Source of the DNA: a virus | DNA length: 27,838 bases | Virus record (IMG/VR): IMGVR_UViG_3300017708_002972 | Coordinates: 1-27,838 of that record | Reading direction: 5' to 3' (one strand) | Shown: in pieces, positions 10,772 to 20,170 of the stretch | How positions within the stretch are numbered: position 1 is the stretch's first letter | Layout: each line of letters begins with the position of its first letter | Made by a program: the position numbers and the translations under genes | The notes under the pieces: model-generated | The model's input: only the letters and a program-made list of their open reading frames with translations | Database searches by the model: none | Told to the model about the DNA's origin: nothing

Positions 10772-10779
10772 TATTTATA
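10772..10779 (-). promoter_or_regulatory. T4-type late promoter for gp48 (TATAAATA)
   Basis: The minus strand reads TATAAATA from 10779 to 10772, 13 bases before the gp48 ATG and overlapping the gp4 stop. It is an exact match to the T4 late consensus, in the right strand and place. Confidence 0.55.
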
Positions 10780-11224
10780 GACCTAATTCATCTTCTGTAA
10801 TTATCTTAAATTCTATCAATCTATCTTCACACCATTCTTGGGCTGCTTTCCACTTGGCAAGATTTTTATTATAGGTAACAACTTCATTAATGTAGGTTCT
10901 TTTTTTCTTACCTTTTGATTGTTTTGGTATAACTGTTTGTCTTTTTGGTTTGACTTCTATTAAATATTTTTTGATTGCTCCACTACTTTCTTTTATTTTC
11001 ATAATAAAATCTGGAAAGTACCTACGAACTTTATTTGTTGTTGGGTCAAAATAGGGAATAAAAAACTCTTCTGATCCCCATTCTAAAATATTATCATTAC
11101 GATCACAGTATCTCATAAATTTTAGTTCCCAAGAAGATCTATAGATAATGTTTCTTGAGTCACCTTTGTATTTGTTAGGAAATCTTGGATGAAATCTTCC
11201 TTGATGATATTTCCCTTCTCGCAT
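10775..11224 (-). CDS. 4: Head completion protein gp4
   Basis: A 149-residue protein matching T4 gp4 (also called gp50/65). Shared features are NIIYRSSWELKFMRYCDRN, ILEWGSEEFFIPY, RRYFPDFIMK, LIEVKPKRQT, AKWKAAQEWC and a C-terminal TEDEL. The fold is nuclease-like: the FPDF Asp and the EVKPK Glu-Lys resemble PD-(D/E)XK active sites. In T4 it is needed for filled heads to accept tails. It leads the minus-strand cassette and is divergent from the 323-residue tail gene. Confidence 0.92.
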   Translation of the reverse strand: MREGKYHQGRFHPRFPNKYKGDSRNIIYRSSWELKFMRYCDRNDNILEWGSEEFFIPYFDPTTNKVRRYFPDFIMKIKESSGAIKKYLIEVKPKRQTVIPKQSKGKKKRTYINEVVTYNKNLAKWKAAQEWCEDRLIEFKIITEDELGL

Positions 11225-11248: not shown

Positions 11249-11256
11249 TATTTATA
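11249..11256 (-). promoter_or_regulatory. T4-type late promoter for gp4-gp48-gp53 (TATAAATA)
   Basis: The minus strand reads TATAAATA from 11256 to 11249, 24 bases before the gp4 ATG in the 35-bp divergent gap. It is an exact match to the T4 late consensus and should drive the whole minus-strand cassette. Confidence 0.65.
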
Positions 11257-11259
11257 GAA

Positions 11260-12231
11260 ATGTCAAATTCATTTCCAAGAACTGGACTTCCCACTAATTT
11301 CGACATTCCTACCGAAAGAATTTTTAATACAGAAATTGATAACGATTTATTGAATGCAAATTTGTTTACTTCTAATGTTACATTACCAGCAAGTAACTTT
11401 GATAATACTCTAAGAGAAAGTTCAAAATCATCATCTGCTCCTAGTCCTAGAAGAACTGCTGCTTCTACAATCAAAGAGAAGTTACTGAAACCTGCTCATA
11501 CTTCTCACTTTGAATGTCATTTTAACCCACCCAATGATGTGGTTTCTTGGTTGTCTAATAGGAATTTGAATCCTCAAGATCCAAATAATCAAAGGTTGAT
11601 AACTCTTTCTTGCACTGAAACTTCACTTCCAGGGTCTAGAATGGCAACAAATACACTTCAAGATAATCATCATGGAGTAACTGAAAGACATGCTTATCGT
11701 CGCCAATTTGATGACACTGCATCTTTCACATTTTATGTTGATGCTCCAAAATCAGGTTCTGAACATGGATATAAATTAATTTGGTTTTTTGAGCAATGGA
11801 AGTCTTTTATAATGAATGAAGAAGATCGTGATATTTCTCTTGATGCCTATAATTGGTATTATAGAGCAAAATTCCCAGAAACATACATGACAAACATTTT
11901 TATTACTAAATTTGAGAGAGATATTGATTTGGTTACTATTAATCCATCTAAATCTACTAAGAAATATTTGGAGTATATGTTTTTGCAGGCATTTCCGATT
12001 TCTATTAATACCATGCCTGTTTCTTATGATCAATCTCAGGTACTTAAGTGTACAGTTTCTTTTGCATTTAGTAGATACATTTTAAAAAGAAAGACGGGAA
12101 TTTCTGAAGGTGATGCATCACAAAACTCTAAAAATCCATTTGATTTAGATTTTACTGATCCTTTTCAAAGACCTTTAAGTCCCACTCAAAGAAGTCCTAT
12201 CCCCCTTGAAGTGATACCATTTAGACCTTAA
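11260..12231 (+). CDS. Tail tube-fold virion protein (possible gp54 counterpart)
   Basis: The ATG at 11260 gives 323 residues; the frame is open further upstream but into gp4. The N-terminus (1-85) looks disordered and Ser/Asn-rich. The core (about 90-285) has features of gp19-type tube proteins: LITLSCTETSLPGSRMAT, a RQFDDTASFTFYVD strand pair, KLIWFFEQWKSFI, and YMFLQAFPISINTMPVSY. A Pro-rich tail closes it. It precedes gp26 and the giant tail proteins, so it may be a tube-initiating baseplate protein like T4 gp54; this is inference from fold and place. Confidence 0.75.
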   Translation: MSNSFPRTGLPTNFDIPTERIFNTEIDNDLLNANLFTSNVTLPASNFDNTLRESSKSSSAPSPRRTAASTIKEKLLKPAHTSHFECHFNPPNDVVSWLSNRNLNPQDPNNQRLITLSCTETSLPGSRMATNTLQDNHHGVTERHAYRRQFDDTASFTFYVDAPKSGSEHGYKLIWFFEQWKSFIMNEEDRDISLDAYNWYYRAKFPETYMTNIFITKFERDIDLVTINPSKSTKKYLEYMFLQAFPISINTMPVSYDQSQVLKCTVSFAFSRYILKRKTGISEGDASQNSKNPFDLDFTDPFQRPLSPTQRSPIPLEVIPFRP

Positions 12232-12275: not shown

Positions 12276-12995
12276 ATGCCACTACCTAAAATTGTTACGC
12301 CAACTTATGAGTTAGTGTTACCTTCTACCGGCAAAACAATTAAATACAGACCTTTTCTTGTCAAAGAAGAAAAAGTTCTCGTAATCGCTATGGAATCTGA
12401 GGATACAAAACAAATTACAAATGCGGTTAAAACTGTTATAAAAAATTGTATTGAAACCAGAGGAATTAAAGTCGAAACGTTGCCTACATTTGATATTGAA
12501 TATCTTTTCTTAAACATCAGATCTAAATCTGTTGGAGAAGAAATTGATGTGAATATTATTTGCCCTGATGATGGAAAAACTGAAGTTCCTGTTACTATTA
12601 ATGTTGATGAAATTCAAGTAATCAAAAACGATAAACATAATAACCGCATTAAACTTGATGATAATGTAATGATGGAAATGAAATATCCATCTCTCGATCA
12701 GTTTATTAAGAATAATTTTGATATTTCTAATAACACTAACATCGACCAGTCGTTTGATTTGATTGCATCTTGTATTGATAAGATTTTTACGGAAGAAGAA
12801 GTTTGGACATCATCTGATGTAACTAAAAAAGAACTTGTTGATTTTCTTGACCAGATGAATACAAATCAATTTAAAGAAATTGAGGAATTTTTCAATACGA
12901 TGCCTAAGTTAACTCACAAGTTTAATGTCAGTAATCCAAAGACTGGTATTGAGTCTGAAGTTGTATTGGAGGGACTGGCAAGTTTTTTCGGCTAG
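12276..12995 (+). CDS. 26: Baseplate hub/tail assembly protein gp26
   Basis: A 239-residue protein of the T4 gp26 (T4 baseplate) family. The N-terminal LPKIVTPTYELVLPSTGKTIKYRPFLVKEEKVL and the following IVIAMES-type helix are typical. A beta-rich middle (VNIICPDDGKTEVPVTINVDEIQV) is followed by a helical C-terminus with KKELVDFLDQMNTNQF. It is thought to act in hub assembly rather than as a main structural part. The last codons AGT TTT TTC contain a -1 slippery heptamer, so a fraction of ribosomes may make a longer fusion of about 305 residues with the next ORF. Confidence 0.88.
   Translation: MPLPKIVTPTYELVLPSTGKTIKYRPFLVKEEKVLVIAMESEDTKQITNAVKTVIKNCIETRGIKVETLPTFDIEYLFLNIRSKSVGEEIDVNIICPDDGKTEVPVTINVDEIQVIKNDKHNNRIKLDDNVMMEMKYPSLDQFIKNNFDISNNTNIDQSFDLIASCIDKIFTEEEVWTSSDVTKKELVDFLDQMNTNQFKEIEEFFNTMPKLTHKFNVSNPKTGIESEVVLEGLASFFG
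12983..12989 (+). other. Candidate -1 programmed frameshift site (T TTT TTC)
   Basis: In the gp26 frame the end reads AGT TTT TTC GGC TAG. T TTT TTC at 12983-12989 fits the X XXY YYZ slippery pattern. After a -1 slip the frame continues CGG CTA GGA ATG, which is exactly the frame of the ORF at 12998, with no stop between. A weak stem TCTCA (13001-13005) with TGAGA (13015-13019) lies 11 bases downstream. The place, between a tube-fold gene and tape-measure-like genes, is where lambda-like phages keep their gpG/gpGT frameshift. Confidence 0.65.
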
Positions 12996-12997
12996 GA

Positions 12998-13192
12998 ATG
13001 TCTCACATGAGTCTTGAGAATTATTTAAAACTAAATTTTTCTTTAATGCAGTACCATAAATACTCATTAACAGAAATTGAAAACATGATGCCATGGGAAC
13101 GAGACATTTATGTTATTCTTCTTAAAAATCACTTAGAGGAAGAAGAAGAAAAGATCAAACTGAGAGAAAACCAAAGAAGAGCAAATGGCTAG
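12998..13192 (+). CDS. Small tail-assembly ORF in the -1 frame of gp26
   Basis: The ORF has 64 residues from the ATG at 12998, 2 bases after the gp26 stop. A second in-frame ATG at 13007 has a better-placed TAGGA (spacing 9). The product LKLNFSLMQYHKYSLTEIENMMPWERDIYVILLKNHLEEEEE resembles the second half of tail-assembly chaperone pairs: a short helical domain with a MPWE-type turn and an acidic end. It may be made alone, as a gp26 fusion through the slippery site at 12983-12989, or both. Its last 8 bases overlap the next gene. Confidence 0.75.
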   Translation: MSHMSLENYLKLNFSLMQYHKYSLTEIENMMPWERDIYVILLKNHLEEEEEKIKLRENQRRANG

Positions 13193-16100
13193 TAAAGCAG
13201 AAAGACTAAGAAAAGTATACGAAGTTAAAATTGGCAAGAAAATTGTCGATAAACTTTCTGATAAGCAAATTAAAATTCTTTCTGCATTTTATAATTCTTT
13301 AGGTGATAAAGAACAAAGTGATTTGGATAGCCAAATTGTAATGGGACGAAATAATACCGAATTGCATGAAATGGCAATTGGTATGATTGAAGAAGAAGAA
13401 AATACTGAAGATAAAATACCAGAAGGTCTTGATGATCTTTTGAATGAGATTTCTGGAAATAAAAAGACTGCAACTAAAACAAAGAGAAAAAGAGGAAGAC
13501 CTAAAAAGAAAGCATCATCTACGCTTCCAGGAAAACTTACTGAGTATTCAAAAACTGAAGACGTAGATTCTAGAATACTTCAACTGCTTGGACTTGATGA
13601 TGTTTTTGACTTAGACTATGATGATTATGCAAACTTATTGAAAGAAAAACTTATAGAAGTTAGTAAAGGTACTGATGATTCCTCTACTGAAGATGCTATG
13701 CTTCTTCGTGAGGAACTGAAGAAAGCGAGAGGAAATAAAGGAAAAGGTGCTTTTAAGATAAAGAAAAAAATAAGTAAGGATAGTTTTACAAATTTTAATG
13801 TTGGTAGACCAAAGAAAGATACTGCTCAGACAAAAAAACCTGCTTATGCTCTTCTTCAAGGGAAAAAAATAAATGAACAATCTCAAAAAGTCGAGGATTT
13901 AAAAAGTAAAGAAAATAAAGAAAATAAAGAAAGTAAGCAAAGTGATAAACAAATCCTAAAGAGTATAAGTAAATCACTTGATAGGATTATTGGAATACTT
14001 TCAAAGCAATTAAAATTTGACAAAAAACAGACAGAAAAGCAGAGAAAACTTGAAGAAAAGGGAAAGAGAAAAGATAAAGAAAATAAAATGGAGAGTACAT
14101 TCTCCAAAGGAATTAAATCATTAGCAAAAGTTGCTAGTAAAATCTTTTCTCCACTTCAAGATCTTTTTGGTAGAATTGTAAGATTTTTAACTATTATTTT
14201 TCTTGGAAAAGTAGTTAAGAAGTTTGTTGATTGGTTTACTAATCCTAAAAATCAAAGTAAAGTAGAAACATTAGGACGATTACTTAAGACATTTTGGCCT
14301 GCAATACTTGCTGGACTTATATTTTTAAATCCTCTTGGTAGACTGATTACTAAGGCAGTTTTTATAATTGGTAAAGGTGTTGCTAGATTATTAAAAGTTG
14401 CGATACCTTCTTTACTTAAGTTTGCTAGAAGAAATCCAAAACTAGCAGCAGCTACTGCATTATTTACTGCAGGTGCAACAATTCCAATGATATTTCCTGG
14501 AACTGTTGATGAACAAGAAAGAAAAACTGGAAAAGAAGTAAGTGAAAAGGGTGAGAACAGGACAAGAAAAGAATTAGAGAGAAAGGCAAATGAACCTAAT
14601 TTTTACGAAAGATTAACAGGTCAAGATTCCGAAGCAAAAGAACAATTATACAAACTGGATACTGGAGAAACAAAAAGTTATAAACGTGGTGGAAAAATTA
14701 CTACTGAAAGTGGTAAAGACATTAAAGGTGCTGGAGTAGATACTCAATTAATTGCTGCAAGACCAGGTGAAATTGTTATTAATAAAGAAACAGTGAATGC
14801 TGTTGGTGCTGATCATTTTCTTGGATTAAATAAGCAGTATGGTGGTGCTAATGCAAATAAACCAAAGACTGTAAGAGGTGTTCAAACAGCATCTGGTGGA
14901 GGTTTGGTTCTTCCTGCTTTTGCTAATGGTGGTAGGATTGGTGAAGGTCCTGAAGAATCTAGACTTCAAAAACGTAGAAAACCATCAACACCGGAAGATA
15001 TTGCAGCAGGTTTAGATAGTAATCTTGTTGAATGGGCAAAAGCAAATCCTACTCTTGCTCGTGCTTTGAAAGCAGGAGATATTGGATATAAAGAGGCTCA
15101 GAAAGCAATTGATTATGGAAGTAATGTCGTTCAACAAATTCCTAAAGTAGCACAACCAGCAATTGATTATGGAAGTAATGTCGTTCAACAAATTCCTAAA
15201 GTAGCACAACCAGCAATTGATTATGGAAGTAATGTTGTTGAAGGTATTTCTAAAATTCCTTCAAAAATAGAAGAAAACATCCCATCAGTTCAGGGATTTG
15301 CTGATGCTGGTGCAGAAGCTTTACCTGCAATTTTATCTGGATTTTTGGGTATTAAAAGAACAGATAGAAGTATCTCTAGAAACATGCAGAGAGCGATGCT
15401 TCATGCTCAGAAAACTGCAACTGAAAAGGGTAGGGATTTTATCGAGTATGAGGATTATTCTGATACTGCAGGTGGTATTGCTGGAAAATATACTATGGGA
15501 AGAGTTGCAGATTCTGAATTTACGAGGGATGCACAAGGCAGAATTATTGGAATGTCTCAAGCGTATGATACAAATAGACCTGCAGATGAATCTATGGCAC
15601 AGGCTTGGGCAAAATCTAAGAAATTTTTAGGTATTGATAATAGTAAAGACATTGAAAAATTTAATAGATTAGTTAGGAATAGAATGTCTTCTGAAGGTGC
15701 ATCTGAAGAGGAAATTCAGAAAAACCTTATAGTTTCTGGTGGTGAAAGGGGTCAAATGGGAGATTTGAAAACAGCAATTTATAAACCATTTGAAGCATTG
15801 TTGGATATTAGTCAAAAAATGCATGGAGGTAAAGGTTCTACTACACATGAAATTATTTTTGACAAAGATGTTCTTGGATTTGATCCTGTAGAAGTGGCAC
15901 CAGCACCTATAACATCAGCACAAATTGGATCTTCAACACAGAAATTTGATAAAGGAGATTATTCTGGAGCGACTAAAGCATTAGGCGGTGATCTATCTAA
16001 ACCTGTTCCTATTCCTCAAATTACTCAGGGAGCAATCCCAAAACCAAAAACAAATCAACAAAAACTGATTGAGAAGAGGCCATGGTATGATAAATTTGGA

Positions 16101-16748
16101 TTGTTTGGTGGTGCTTCTAGACTTCAGAAGAAAGAAGGTGGTGGAATAATTAATGGTTCTACTGAAAAGGGTGGTGGATTTAATCTACTAAATCCAGCAT
16201 CTTGGTTTAGTGGTGACGCACAGAAAGCAACTAGAGGTGAATTAGGTTCTGTTAATGATAATTCTCTTGCAGGGAAACTATACAATAAAAGAAGAAAACA
16301 AGAAGAGATGATGAAGGAGTTGGGTTACCAAAGTGGTGGTTATATTAAAGAAAATAGTGGAATGAATGTTCTTGGTGGTGCTGATAGACAAAAAATTATA
16401 ACTCAACCTGGAGAGTATGTTCTTCCTGTTGATACTGTAATGGACTTAGGCGGACCTCAAAAAATTGATAGGATTGTTGCTGATACTGATTCTAATTCTA
16501 GTCCAGCAAAGATGGGTCTTAGAAACAAAGATATTTCTGAGGGAATATTACCTTATGAAACACAGGGTTCTGGTGGAATTGACATAGAAACTCTTCCATT
16601 ATCTGGTCTCGGTGGAATGGGAGGATCATCTGGTGGATTAAATAGTCCTAATGGAACACAAGATGAATTTTTCTCTCCGATTTCTTCGGCAGGATTGTCT
16701 GAAAGGCAACGTTTTATGGACACGATAGGTATTTCTGCATTCGGATAA
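13185..16748 (+). CDS. Giant tail protein, tape-measure-like, 1187 aa
   Basis: The N-terminal 300 residues are charged and helical, with two AT-hook-like motifs (KRKRGRPKKK at 100-109, VGRPKK near 206) and a Lys/Glu coiled-coil segment (KKQTEKQRKLEEKGKRK near 280). A hydrophobic block follows (about 315-440). Two PGE modules occur (near residues 527 and 1075: PGEIVINKETV and PGEYVLPVDTV), a pattern seen in tape-measure proteins. The middle has repeats of AIDYGSNVVQQIPKVAQP. Size and place between gp26 and the hub suggest a tape-measure or tail-lumen protein. The ATG overlaps the previous gene by 8 bases. Confidence 0.75.
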   Translation: MASKAERLRKVYEVKIGKKIVDKLSDKQIKILSAFYNSLGDKEQSDLDSQIVMGRNNTELHEMAIGMIEEEENTEDKIPEGLDDLLNEISGNKKTATKTKRKRGRPKKKASSTLPGKLTEYSKTEDVDSRILQLLGLDDVFDLDYDDYANLLKEKLIEVSKGTDDSSTEDAMLLREELKKARGNKGKGAFKIKKKISKDSFTNFNVGRPKKDTAQTKKPAYALLQGKKINEQSQKVEDLKSKENKENKESKQSDKQILKSISKSLDRIIGILSKQLKFDKKQTEKQRKLEEKGKRKDKENKMESTFSKGIKSLAKVASKIFSPLQDLFGRIVRFLTIIFLGKVVKKFVDWFTNPKNQSKVETLGRLLKTFWPAILAGLIFLNPLGRLITKAVFIIGKGVARLLKVAIPSLLKFARRNPKLAAATALFTAGATIPMIFPGTVDEQERKTGKEVSEKGENRTRKELERKANEPNFYERLTGQDSEAKEQLYKLDTGETKSYKRGGKITTESGKDIKGAGVDTQLIAARPGEIVINKETVNAVGADHFLGLNKQYGGANANKPKTVRGVQTASGGGLVLPAFANGGRIGEGPEESRLQKRRKPSTPEDIAAGLDSNLVEWAKANPTLARALKAGDIGYKEAQKAIDYGSNVVQQIPKVAQPAIDYGSNVVQQIPKVAQPAIDYGSNVVEGISKIPSKIEENIPSVQGFADAGAEALPAILSGFLGIKRTDRSISRNMQRAMLHAQKTATEKGRDFIEYEDYSDTAGGIAGKYTMGRVADSEFTRDAQGRIIGMSQAYDTNRPADESMAQAWAKSKKFLGIDNSKDIEKFNRLVRNRMSSEGASEEEIQKNLIVSGGERGQMGDLKTAIYKPFEALLDISQKMHGGKGSTTHEIIFDKDVLGFDPVEVAPAPITSAQIGSSTQKFDKGDYSGATKALGGDLSKPVPIPQITQGAIPKPKTNQQKLIEKRPWYDKFGLFGGASRLQKKEGGGIINGSTEKGGGFNLLNPASWFSGDAQKATRGELGSVNDNSLAGKLYNKRRKQEEMMKELGYQSGGYIKENSGMNVLGGADRQKIITQPGEYVLPVDTVMDLGGPQKIDRIVADTDSNSSPAKMGLRNKDISEGILPYETQGSGGIDIETLPLSGLGGMGGSSGGLNSPNGTQDEFFSPISSAGLSERQRFMDTIGISAFG
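15105..15236 (+). repeat. 54-bp direct repeat, two copies plus a partial third
   Basis: Copies at 15105-15158 and 15159-15212 are identical, and a third starts at 15213 and diverges after about 24 bases. Each unit encodes 18 residues (AIDYGSNVVQQIPKVAQP). Identity at the DNA level points to a recent tandem duplication within the giant tail gene. Confidence 0.9.
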
Positions 16749-16753
16749 AATAA

Positions 16754-19700
16754 ATGGCATTACCAGCATTACTTTCAGGATTAGGAAGACAACTAGTAGT
16801 TCAAGGTGCTAAAGGTGCTGCTAAAGGTGCTGCTAAAAAAATGCTTTCTGGTAAAGCAAAAGAACGAAATAATAATTTTATAGTAAAACGACAAGAAAGT
16901 CCTAAAGTAGGATATAAAAAATCTTCTGCTTTAGTTCCAGTAAGTAAATCAATAAATTTTGATTCTCCTACATCTTCACCAGAAGTATCATCTTCCACTA
17001 AAGATGCTGATGGTACTTTATTGACTATTAAAGAGAAAGTTATAAGGATTGAAAATCTCTTAGGGGAGCAATATAAGAATAGAAAGAAACAGGCAGAGAA
17101 ACAAAGAAAACTTTCCGAGAGAGCAGGTAGAAAAGAAAAAGAAGAATTATTAGAAAAAACTCCTCAAGAAAAAAAGAATAAGGGTAAATTTAACATACCC
17201 ATACCTGGAAAGGGATTATTTGATAACCTTATGTCAAGGGTATTTAATTTCTTATTTTGGGTTGCTATAGGAAAAATGCTTCCCACAATTATAAAATTCC
17301 TTCCTCAGATAATGGGGTTCTTAAAAGTTATTGGGAAGGTGATGGATGCCGTTATTAATGTGGCAGGATTTATATTAGATGGATTTATAACTTTTGTTGA
17401 TTTTGGATTTAAAGTTTATGATAAAATTAGGGGATTTGCTGGTGCTATTGGTGGAGAAGGATTAGTAAAAGTCCTTGATGGATTTACTAGTGCAGTCGAA
17501 ACATTATTGAACTTATTATTCATCATTTCAATGGCCAGTGCTGTTGGTGGAGGTTTTGGCGGCGGCAAAGGTGGTCGTAAAGGTGGTGGACAAACGCCAG
17601 GAACTAGACCAGGACAAGGATTGAGACCTAAGGTAACAACAACTGGTGGTAGAGGTCTGAATAGACCTGATATCAGAAATCCTCTGAGGGATCGTCCTAA
17701 TGTTAGTGTTAGTGGTGGTGGAACTGCAGGAAGACCCGACATTAGGAATCCTCTGAGAGATCGTCCTAATGTTAGTGTTAGTGGTGGTGGAACTGCAGGA
17801 AGACCCGACATTAGGAATCCTTTAAGAACAAGACCTAACATTACTACTGGTGCAGGTAAAGCATTAGCAGGCGAAGCGGCAGAAAAGATCACTAAAAAAA
17901 CTGCTTTTTTAGCAGCTGGGAAGTTTATTCAACCTTTTACAAAAAGGATACCAATTTTTGGTCCTATTGTAGATTTTGTTATAAGTGTTGCATTGGGGGA
18001 AAGTGTTGGTAGAGCAGCTGCGAGAGCAATTGGTGCTGGTCTTGGGTCATGGGCTGGTGGATCAATTGGTTTGTTTCTTGCTGGTGCTGTTGGAAGTATT
18101 GTTCCCATTGCTGGAACTTTGCTTGGTGGAACAATAGGAGGTGCTATTGGGACTATTATTGGAGGTTTGCTTGGAGATTATGTTGGTGGGTGGTTGTATG
18201 ACACGGTAGTTGGAGGAAATGATACTTCAAATACACCAAGTCCTAAAACTAATAAAAAAGAAACAGAAACGCAAAAATTACAAGAAGGTGGAACAGTTCA
18301 AGAAGAAGATAAAAATCTTGAATATGATCCAATATCAGGTAAGATTAAAAAAAGAAAAATTCAAATACAAGATATTTCTCAAACTGCCAAGGATAATAAA
18401 AATGTCGCCAAAGTTTATACTAAAGAGGGAGCAAAGAAAATTATTGATTTGGCGAATTCCATAAAGGATGTGCCAATCATTGGTAGTTCTATGTTTTCTG
18501 CATTAAACATTGCTTTGGGTAATAAACCTGATCAAATGTTGACAAAGGCTATTGCTTATGATTTAATGTCATTTTCTAATTTAGATTCTTTTGAGAATCT
18601 TTCTGGATCTTTTAGTAAATTGAATTCTCTTGTGGCTATGGAAGGAGGCGGTGAAGTTAAGAGATTAATTTCTTCAAAGGATTCTGATTTTGAAACTTCT
18701 GCTCAAACGTTATCAATTTTCTTGGATCAGAAAATTAACAATGAAGAAGTTAAAAAAATAACAGAGCAAGATAAAAAAGAAGCATCTAAAAATTCTTGGT
18801 GGGATCCTCTTGGGTTATTTGCTAACACCAGTGCCAGTCCCACTGCAACTAGTAGTCCTGGTGGTCCTGGTCCTGGTGGTCCTGGTCCTGGTGGTCCTGG
18901 TCCTGATAGTCCTGGTCCTGGTGGTCCTGGTGCTGGTGGTCCTGGTCCTGGTGCTGGTGGGGGTATTGTTGGTGGACCAGGAACACCTGAACAAAAAGCA
19001 CTTTTAGACTCAATTTCATTCGCAGAAGGAACATCAAAAAGTTATGGAACTGTCTATGGCGGAAAAGTAATACCAGAACTTGAAAGGGGCGAGATGACAG
19101 TTGCTCAAGTTCTAGAAATGCAAAAAACTGGAACTTTCAATGGAATACAATATATTCCTCCAAACGGATATGACTCTGATGCGACTGGTAGATATCAGTT
19201 TATGTCTTATACTTTGAAAGAGGAAATTCAAAAACAAGGTGTTCCTATGGACGCTAAATTTACTCCTGCCCTTCAAGATAAATTGATTCTTGGGAGACTT
19301 GCCCGTTATAGAGGAGTTACACCAGAACTTTTATCTAAAGAAGGATTAAGTACAAATGTTCTTGATAAACTTGCTCCAGAATTTGCATCTTTTCCATATT
19401 CTCCAAAAGGAAATCAAAGTTATTATGGGCAACCGGTAAAATCTCCCGAATCTATTCGTAACTCTTTTAATGATGCTCTGGGTAGAAGAAAAGAAGAAGA
19501 AAAATCTACTCAAACTACACCAATTTCTCAACAAGAACTTCCTGGACCAACACAAACAGCACCAACAGAATCATCTTCTAATAACAGGGGAAATGGGTCT
19601 AAACTTGCTGGTGAACTTGGAAGATTCTTAGATTCTAAAGGTCTTGGGAATTGGGGTTCAGGTACTCATCAGCATCCAGAACATCCACCTTGGCCAAAAG

Positions 19701-20170
19701 AAAGTGGACACTCTGAGAATTCTTTACATTACGAATCTCAAGGAGCAAGGGCAATTGATATTGGAGGTTGGGGACCAAAATTATTCAAAAGAAATGGTGA
19801 AAGTGGAACTGACGATCAAACAAAAATTCTCGCAGGGATTAATGAGTTTAATTCAAGCAAAGGGGTATCACCAGTACAATTGCTTGCAGAATATAATGAA
19901 CCAGGTGGACACTCTGATCATGTTCACGTTGCCTATCAAGGTGGTGGATTAATTCGTCCTAGAAGTTCAATGAGTGTTCCAAATTCCTTTACATCCTATA
20001 ATAATCCATCTGCAAATACAAAAGTAGTTATGGTTCCTATTGCTGTTCCAGTTTCTAAACCTCAAATGAGTCCATCTCTTGAAAATTCAATGGGAGGATT
20101 TGTTCAATTTAGTGAGGTAAATAGTATGAGTAGTCGTATGAACCCAATACATCAAACAAGTAGGTCTTAA
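16754..20170 (+). CDS. Giant tail protein with lysozyme-like and M15-like domains, 1138 aa
   Basis: Residues 112-130 carry a Lys-rich coil (KKQAEKQRKLSERAGRK) like that of the upstream giant protein. Hydrophobic blocks lie near 156-270 and 372-483, the second Gly-zipper-like. After a collagen-like Gly-Pro linker (702-737) comes a GH104/lambda-lysozyme-like domain (about 744-895) with Glu758 in FAEGT and the TGRYQF turn at 811-816. The C-terminal domain (about 947-1063) has GHSENSLH with His986/His992, AIDI with Asp1002, and HVH at 1056-1058, as in zinc M15/LAS peptidases. It probably opens the cell wall during injection. Possibly a second tape-measure protein. Confidence 0.78.
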   Translation: MALPALLSGLGRQLVVQGAKGAAKGAAKKMLSGKAKERNNNFIVKRQESPKVGYKKSSALVPVSKSINFDSPTSSPEVSSSTKDADGTLLTIKEKVIRIENLLGEQYKNRKKQAEKQRKLSERAGRKEKEELLEKTPQEKKNKGKFNIPIPGKGLFDNLMSRVFNFLFWVAIGKMLPTIIKFLPQIMGFLKVIGKVMDAVINVAGFILDGFITFVDFGFKVYDKIRGFAGAIGGEGLVKVLDGFTSAVETLLNLLFIISMASAVGGGFGGGKGGRKGGGQTPGTRPGQGLRPKVTTTGGRGLNRPDIRNPLRDRPNVSVSGGGTAGRPDIRNPLRDRPNVSVSGGGTAGRPDIRNPLRTRPNITTGAGKALAGEAAEKITKKTAFLAAGKFIQPFTKRIPIFGPIVDFVISVALGESVGRAAARAIGAGLGSWAGGSIGLFLAGAVGSIVPIAGTLLGGTIGGAIGTIIGGLLGDYVGGWLYDTVVGGNDTSNTPSPKTNKKETETQKLQEGGTVQEEDKNLEYDPISGKIKKRKIQIQDISQTAKDNKNVAKVYTKEGAKKIIDLANSIKDVPIIGSSMFSALNIALGNKPDQMLTKAIAYDLMSFSNLDSFENLSGSFSKLNSLVAMEGGGEVKRLISSKDSDFETSAQTLSIFLDQKINNEEVKKITEQDKKEASKNSWWDPLGLFANTSASPTATSSPGGPGPGGPGPGGPGPDSPGPGGPGAGGPGPGAGGGIVGGPGTPEQKALLDSISFAEGTSKSYGTVYGGKVIPELERGEMTVAQVLEMQKTGTFNGIQYIPPNGYDSDATGRYQFMSYTLKEEIQKQGVPMDAKFTPALQDKLILGRLARYRGVTPELLSKEGLSTNVLDKLAPEFASFPYSPKGNQSYYGQPVKSPESIRNSFNDALGRRKEEEKSTQTTPISQQELPGPTQTAPTESSSNNRGNGSKLAGELGRFLDSKGLGNWGSGTHQHPEHPPWPKESGHSENSLHYESQGARAIDIGGWGPKLFKRNGESGTDDQTKILAGINEFNSSKGVSPVQLLAEYNEPGGHSDHVHVAYQGGGLIRPRSSMSVPNSFTSYNNPSANTKVVMVPIAVPVSKPQMSPSLENSMGGFVQFSEVNSMSSRMNPIHQTSRS
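17663..17830 (+). repeat. 69-bp direct repeat, two copies plus a partial third
   Basis: Units at 17663-17731 and 17732-17800, with a partial third from 17801, encode RPDIRNPLRDRPNVSVSGGG plus TAG (23 residues). The copies differ by a few silent changes. They form a Pro/Gly-rich flexible linker between the hydrophobic blocks of the second giant tail protein. Confidence 0.85.
18857..18962 (+). repeat. Collagen-like Gly-Pro repeat tract
   Basis: A run of GGTCCT-type units encodes about 35 residues of GGP and GPG triplets (residues 702-737 of the second giant tail protein). It separates the structural part from the enzymatic domains, as a linker or a short collagen-like trimer stem. Confidence 0.8.

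Follow-up and report, generated by a model that had tools for sequence, protein, structure and literature searches.

The stretch of DNA analysed here, referred to below as the window, comprises all 27,838 nucleotides (positions 1 to 27,838) of the IMG/VR virus record IMGVR_UViG_3300017708_002972, which belongs to a T4-like ocean cyanophage. Our subject is gene 26 and the short open reading frame (ORF) that follows it; all features lie on the plus strand unless stated otherwise. The product of gene 26, gp26 (12276..12995), has 239 residues and a C-terminus of SFFG followed by the stop, and is read here as the putative short form of a tail-assembly chaperone (TAC-N). The 3′ end of the gene is GCA AGT TTT TTC GGC TAG. 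Within it, T TTT TTC (12983..12989) is a slippery heptamer in X XXY YYZ phase relative to the gp26 frame, on which two Phe tRNAs could slip by −1. The zero-frame stop TAG (12993..12995) lies one codon past the heptamer. Meanwhile, the −1 frame reads TTT TTT CGG CTA GGA ATG and runs without a stop into an ORF (12998..13192) that most annotations treat as a gene in its own right, gene 51 (baseplate hub assembly catalyst). The whole stop-free −1 extension (12983..13192), the cyanophage "gp51", starts FFRLGMSHMSLENY and matches phrog_634 (2.5e-28); it would form the C-terminal domain (TAC-C) of a longer protein. The predicted fusion (TAC-NC) consists of 238 residues of gp26, 3 from the junction and 64 from the ORF, or 305 residues. 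A −1 fusion had been proposed by an earlier sequence-only reading of the window, and the positions, residue numbers and junction peptide that it gave are correct to the base.

A heptamer followed by an ORF in the −1 frame is not compelling in a single genome, where chance has to be reckoned with: if every kind of in-frame XXXYYYZ heptamer is counted, 53 of the 7016 codons in the window's larger ORFs carry one, and the next ORF stands in the −1 relation in one case out of three by chance alone. Chance is excluded because of the conservation of the site across relatives, and not by the geometry of one genome. We compared a close set of 81 loci (the window and its 80 closest IMG/VR relatives, two of which have the −1 frame ended by the contig end) and a wider set of 334 loci in which the end of gp26 is intact, obtained through further searches and from named phages; the gp26 proteins of KVP40 and Kuja, used as queries, added 2 and 1 loci to the latter. 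Every close locus (81/81) displayed the heptamer in frame, exactly 10 nucleotides ahead of the gp26 stop, together with an open −1 frame. In the wider set, an in-frame TTTTTTN was present near the gp26 end of 330 of the 334 loci (312 with C, 17 with T and 1 with G). This set also includes phages of hosts other than cyanobacteria, namely Sinorhizobium phiM7 and phiN3, Stenotrophomonas Moby, Acidovorax ACP17, Vibrio KVP40 and Rhizobium N34. The −1 frame was open in all 334, four of which reach the contig end within about 45 nucleotides, and phrog_634 was matched by 64 of 65 sampled −1 extensions. In phage S-N03 a stop in the −1 frame stands immediately 5′ of the heptamer; therefore, in this phage the −1 frame can be entered at the heptamer only. 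The sequence-only reading had named loss of the heptamer in relatives that keep gp26 and the ORF as the outcome that would speak against it. The opposite was seen: the site is near-invariant, synonymous positions included, and the −1 frame is always open.

An alternative explanation for the conserved heptamer is that it is a by-product of keeping Phe-Phe at the C-terminus, and that gene 51 is a normal small gene, with ribosomes re-initiating past the gp26 stop at an ATG belonging to it (12998 or 13007). Codon usage at the site argues against the first part of this proposal. In the 142 cyanophage representatives left after dereplication, the Phe pair was written TTT (142/142) and then TTC (142/142), and the codon ahead of the pair always ended in T. 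Elsewhere in gp26, TTC makes up 26% of Phe codons, and Phe-Phe pairs are rarely written TTTTTC (4/166). We also counted substitutions on a tree built from 182 loci after dereplication. The third bases of the codon ahead of the pair (codon 0), F237 and F238 changed 0, 0 and 6 times, respectively, against a median of 53 changes for the other gp26 third bases and 17–59 for other conserved Phe columns, so that conservation of the two amino acids leaves the frozen synonymous bases unexplained. Codon 0 is especially informative: its amino acid varies freely, the first and second bases having changed 37 and 38 times and the third not once. The third positions adjoining the slip site are highly variable, hence recent common ancestry does not account for the frozen bases. 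Judged by these substitution patterns, selection at the slip site acts on the nucleotides and not on Phe-Phe alone.

The second part of the proposal, a gene 51 with a start of its own, draws on the position of the ATG in the window (3 nucleotides past the gp26 stop), on the sequence TAGGA, which could serve as a Shine-Dalgarno for the ATG at 13007, and on the separate gp26 and gp51 annotations of public records. In many relatives these starts are not kept. The ATG at 12998 is absent from 32 of the 81 close loci, two of which also lack the next ATG. More broadly, ATG, GTG and TTG are all missing from the initial 13 codons of the −1 frame in 35 of the 142 representatives, or 116 of the 330 loci, most of them S-RIM12-like, making independent translation of the ORF very unlikely in these loci. 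Gene 51 thus does not display the conserved start codon expected of an independent gene, and a separate start of the ORF was rejected; meanwhile, the passage from gp26 into the ORF is the same in all clades. As for how public records depict this region, the C-terminal domain is drawn from an internal start in those of S-RIM12 and C48C1, the record of ACP17 has no coding sequence between 3262 and 3416, and no joined coding sequence is annotated at gp26 in any of the public records examined.

Upstream of the heptamer, the Leu-Glu-Gly codons of gp26 contain the Shine-Dalgarno-like sequence GGAGGGA (12968..12974), whose GGAGG (12968–12972) ends 10 nucleotides ahead of the heptamer. The spacing reported for Shine-Dalgarno stimulators of −1 frameshifting is 9–14 nucleotides (reviewed in PMC5009743). 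The Glu codon is GAG in 110 of the 142 representatives, against 29% elsewhere in gp26. Predicted pairing of the 24 nucleotides upstream with the 3′ end of 16S rRNA averaged −8.4 kcal/mol, compared to −6.6 kcal/mol for synonymous recodings (z = −11.6, a value that treats the representatives as independent). The sequence GAGG also occurs in about half of the non-cyanophage loci. GGAGGGA is therefore likely a stimulator of −1 frameshifting that is kept by synonymous selection. Pairing at this element was far stronger than before the gp26 start or before the ATGs of the ORF. Ahead of the first of these ATGs (+15) it was weak, with 0/74 reaching −6 kcal/mol or lower, and ahead of the second (+24) 25% reached that value, while the GAGG element itself is too distant from both of these downstream ATGs to serve initiation. 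Taken with the missing start codons and the frozen synonymous bases, this makes re-initiation at a separate gene 51 very improbable.

The same element bears on another explanation, in which RNA polymerase slips on the run of Ts and produces some mRNAs that are one base short. The site is indeed a homopolymer, with six Ts and occasionally more, and transcriptional slippage on runs of A or T is known in bacteria. Yet in 312 of 330 loci a C follows the sixth T, while the bacterial slippage runs that have been reviewed measure about nine (PMC5009743). In addition, the X XXY YYZ codon phase is kept, although polymerase slippage would need no fixed phase, and a Shine-Dalgarno-like element works on translating ribosomes, not on RNA polymerase. 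We consider this explanation very improbable.

Downstream of the heptamer we found a candidate small 3′ hairpin (13000..13013) with 5 base pairs and a loop of 4 nucleotides, which was detected through covariation; four of its five pairs form in the window, with one mismatch. Within the clade of the window, 84.8% of cells were paired compared to 78.2% after shuffling, and 40 cells had changed on both sides compared to 14.2 in shuffles; in neither case did any of 500 shuffles score as high. Folding of single sequences downstream (+12..+61) was mildly below that of shuffled sequences (mean z of −1.8). This covariation suggests that the hairpin is likely a second stimulator, in the window's clade only. 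As a general stimulator it was ruled out, being absent from the other two cyanophage clades.

The homology of the two reading frames to T4 proteins provided insights into what the fusion may be. The gp26 of the window matches the Pfam family T4_baseplate (3.3e-77; 259.5 bits, where the cut-off is 24.5), and so does T4 gp51, a protein of 249 residues, over its residues 1–201 (3.9e-52). In profile comparisons, gp26 aligned to residues 62–201 of T4 gp51 (E of 3e-10) and the −1 product to residues 200–245 (E of 2.6e-6). Similarly, gp26 and the −1 product occupy contiguous parts of phrog_150, at positions 5–232 and 231–280. From these alignments it follows that the frameshift product would continue exactly like the one-piece T4 protein. 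The gp26 domain is present in T4 gp26 as well as in T4 gp51, and the latter ends in the domain encoded by the ORF. The gp51 of cyanophages has been described as only about 20% of the usual length, lacking the first ~200 residues (Sullivan et al. 2010, PMC3037559). This short gp51 would be explained by the frameshift, which supplies the missing part from gp26. In T4 the short form (26) and the long form (51) are encoded by separate, divergently transcribed genes, whereas the phage of the window has a single slip site. It seems that in T4 a pair of genes, 26 for the short form and 51 for the long one, has taken the place of the slip.

Based on these findings, we propose that a tail-assembly chaperone is produced from gene 26 in a short and a long version, TAC-N and the frameshifted TAC-NC, and we assign this reading a probability of about 0.93. 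On the sequence evidence, the signals, their selective conservation and the unbroken homology of the fusion to T4 gp51 are established; the slip itself, its frequency and the partners of the two forms are what we infer. Most ribosomes would reach the TAG at 12993 and release the 239-residue TAC-N. A minority would move back by one base at U UUU UUC, where both Phe tRNAs can re-pair with UUU, aided by the GGAGGGA located 10 nucleotides upstream and perhaps by the small downstream hairpin. The slipped ribosomes would continue through CGG CUA GGA into the "gene 51" region and produce the 305-residue TAC-NC. By analogy with gpG and gpGT of phage lambda, TAC-N may coat the tape-measure protein while a few copies of TAC-NC recruit tail-tube subunits, and both would depart before the tail is completed. 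T4 gp51 is needed for assembly and is not found in the virion, and gp26 and gp51 have been listed as hub assembly chaperones (PMC3004832). The likeness to gpG/gpGT suggested by the sequence-only reading gains support from the one-chain architecture of T4 gp51, from the gene order and from a weak resemblance to an HK97 chaperone.

The gene order is tube-like, 26, 51, tape-measure-like, and the call for the upstream gene is clear: the tail-tube-like gene (11254..12231) matches phrog_45 (tail tube, 3.6e-28) and Pfam Phage_TTP_2 (6.1e-12). As for the fold, the AlphaFold2 model of gp26 had a pLDDT (predicted local distance difference test score) of 86.7. Among the Foldseek matches listed for this model, the top probabilities in the PDB, 0.80 and 0.63, were obtained for the HK97 tail assembly chaperone 2OB9 (gp13); YqbN (3KLU) scored 0.21. 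Several observations weigh against the proposal of a two-length chaperone. The match to 2OB9 has an E of 1.1 and covers only 62–90 columns, no chaperone was among the 50 matches listed in the fold search with a T4-type gp51 model, and a sequence search of solved structures found no relative. Since the T4-type gp51 model lacked the HK97 match among those 50, we take the modelled likeness of gp26 to the HK97 chaperone as suggestive only. The tape-measure calls for the genes downstream rest on weak matches. The hairpin is restricted to one clade and does not form in S-RIM12-like or P-SSM2-like phages, indicating that it is not essential. Finally, ribosomes of E. coli shift less readily on U UUU UUA and U UUU UUU than on A AAA AAG (PMC5009743).

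A frameshifted chaperone system in T4-like phages is already known. Work published by Vladimirov, Gautam & Davidson, said to be in Virology 566:9-15 (2022), reportedly found frameshifting to be kept in several T4-like groups, with T4 itself having separate genes 26 and 51. A 2025 paper (PMC12846349) credits that 2022 study with the poly-T signals for −1 frameshifting in "TAC-N genes of T4-like phages"; hence the view of the sequence-only reading that no description existed does not hold. The TAC-N and TAC-NC of T4-like phages (Vladimirov et al. 2022) involve the same genes 26 and 51 and the same proposed role as here. Our analysis adds how widely the site is conserved, that start codons are missing, that T4 gp51 is matched with no gap, and which elements are candidate stimulators; these stimulators are new as far as we know.

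Other systems resemble this one. In lambda, as proposed here, the long form gains a C-terminal domain; the lambda genes lie between those of the tube and the tape measure, and those of the window between a tube-like gene and genes with weak tape-measure matches. The heptamer of the window, T TTT TTC, is however not that of lambda, and we claim no sequence similarity. The lambda long form is made at a low fixed ratio of about 1 in 30. Frameshifting of the G-T type has been described as widespread "except T4" (PMC5009743). Another case is Pseudomonas phage Adele (Vandenendeviridae/Andersonviridae), in which TAC-N has a conserved poly-T −1 slip and the stop-free extension was misannotated as a separate gene (PMC12846349), although these are other phage families and the Adele motif is GTTTTT instead of T TTT TTC. 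Meanwhile, dnaX of E. coli shares the upstream Shine-Dalgarno stimulator, the homopolymeric heptamer and the downstream hairpin (PMC5009743), but it is a cellular gene with A AAA AAG and an efficiency of about 50%, and its slip shortens the product whereas the slip proposed here lengthens it.

These findings have implications for annotation. Annotations of cyanophages generally either show gene 51 as a short gene of its own or overlook it, and reading 26 and 51 as one frameshifted chaperone would correct this and clarify how T4 gp26 relates to T4 gp51. T4-like cyanophages are among the most abundant marine viruses. The site also offers a compact −1 cassette that can be tested. In the literature on ribosome profiling of cyanophages, judged by titles and counts, we found passing mentions of either term only. 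One could go further and envision GGAGGGA, U UUU UUC and the clade-specific hairpin as a tuned three-part cassette, in which pairing with cyanobacterial 16S rRNA sets the ratio of the two forms, with an architecture that may be undescribed for this family, and which T4 lost through gene duplication; we would as readily doubt this extended scenario as accept it.

Some loci of the wider comparison differ at the junction. In Vibrio phages K361 and Kuja and Erwinia phage Bue1, the C-terminal domain is open in the −1 frame of gp26 with no canonical heptamer. The sites at these loci (L087, L089/L340 and L096, respectively) are CTT TTC, CTT TTT and ATT TTC, which suggests a slip of one tRNA or another route of joining; Kuja and Bue1 are Ackermannviridae and K361 is unclassified. 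In the marine phages L291, L310, L311, L313, L325 and L265, the zero-frame stop comes 31 nucleotides after the start of the heptamer. The gp26 C-terminus in such loci is QDFFVSASPTNP or similar, giving a longer than usual overlap with the −1 frame.

The window also displays other genes of structural interest. Downstream of the ORF are two adjacent large genes, both with tape-measure-like or tail-lysin-like matches. The first (13185..16748), tape-measure-like, matches phrog_35029 (unknown function, 2.4e-56) and reaches only 0.01 with the tape measure phrog_4372. The second (16754..20170) matches phrog_1047 (tail associated lysin, 2.1e-18) and phrog_794 (tape measure, 4.6e-09). On the minus strand, a gp4-like head-closure protein (10775–11224) matches both the N-terminal domain of the TnsA endonuclease in Pfam (1.9e-22) and the head closure family phrog_218 (8.5e-60).
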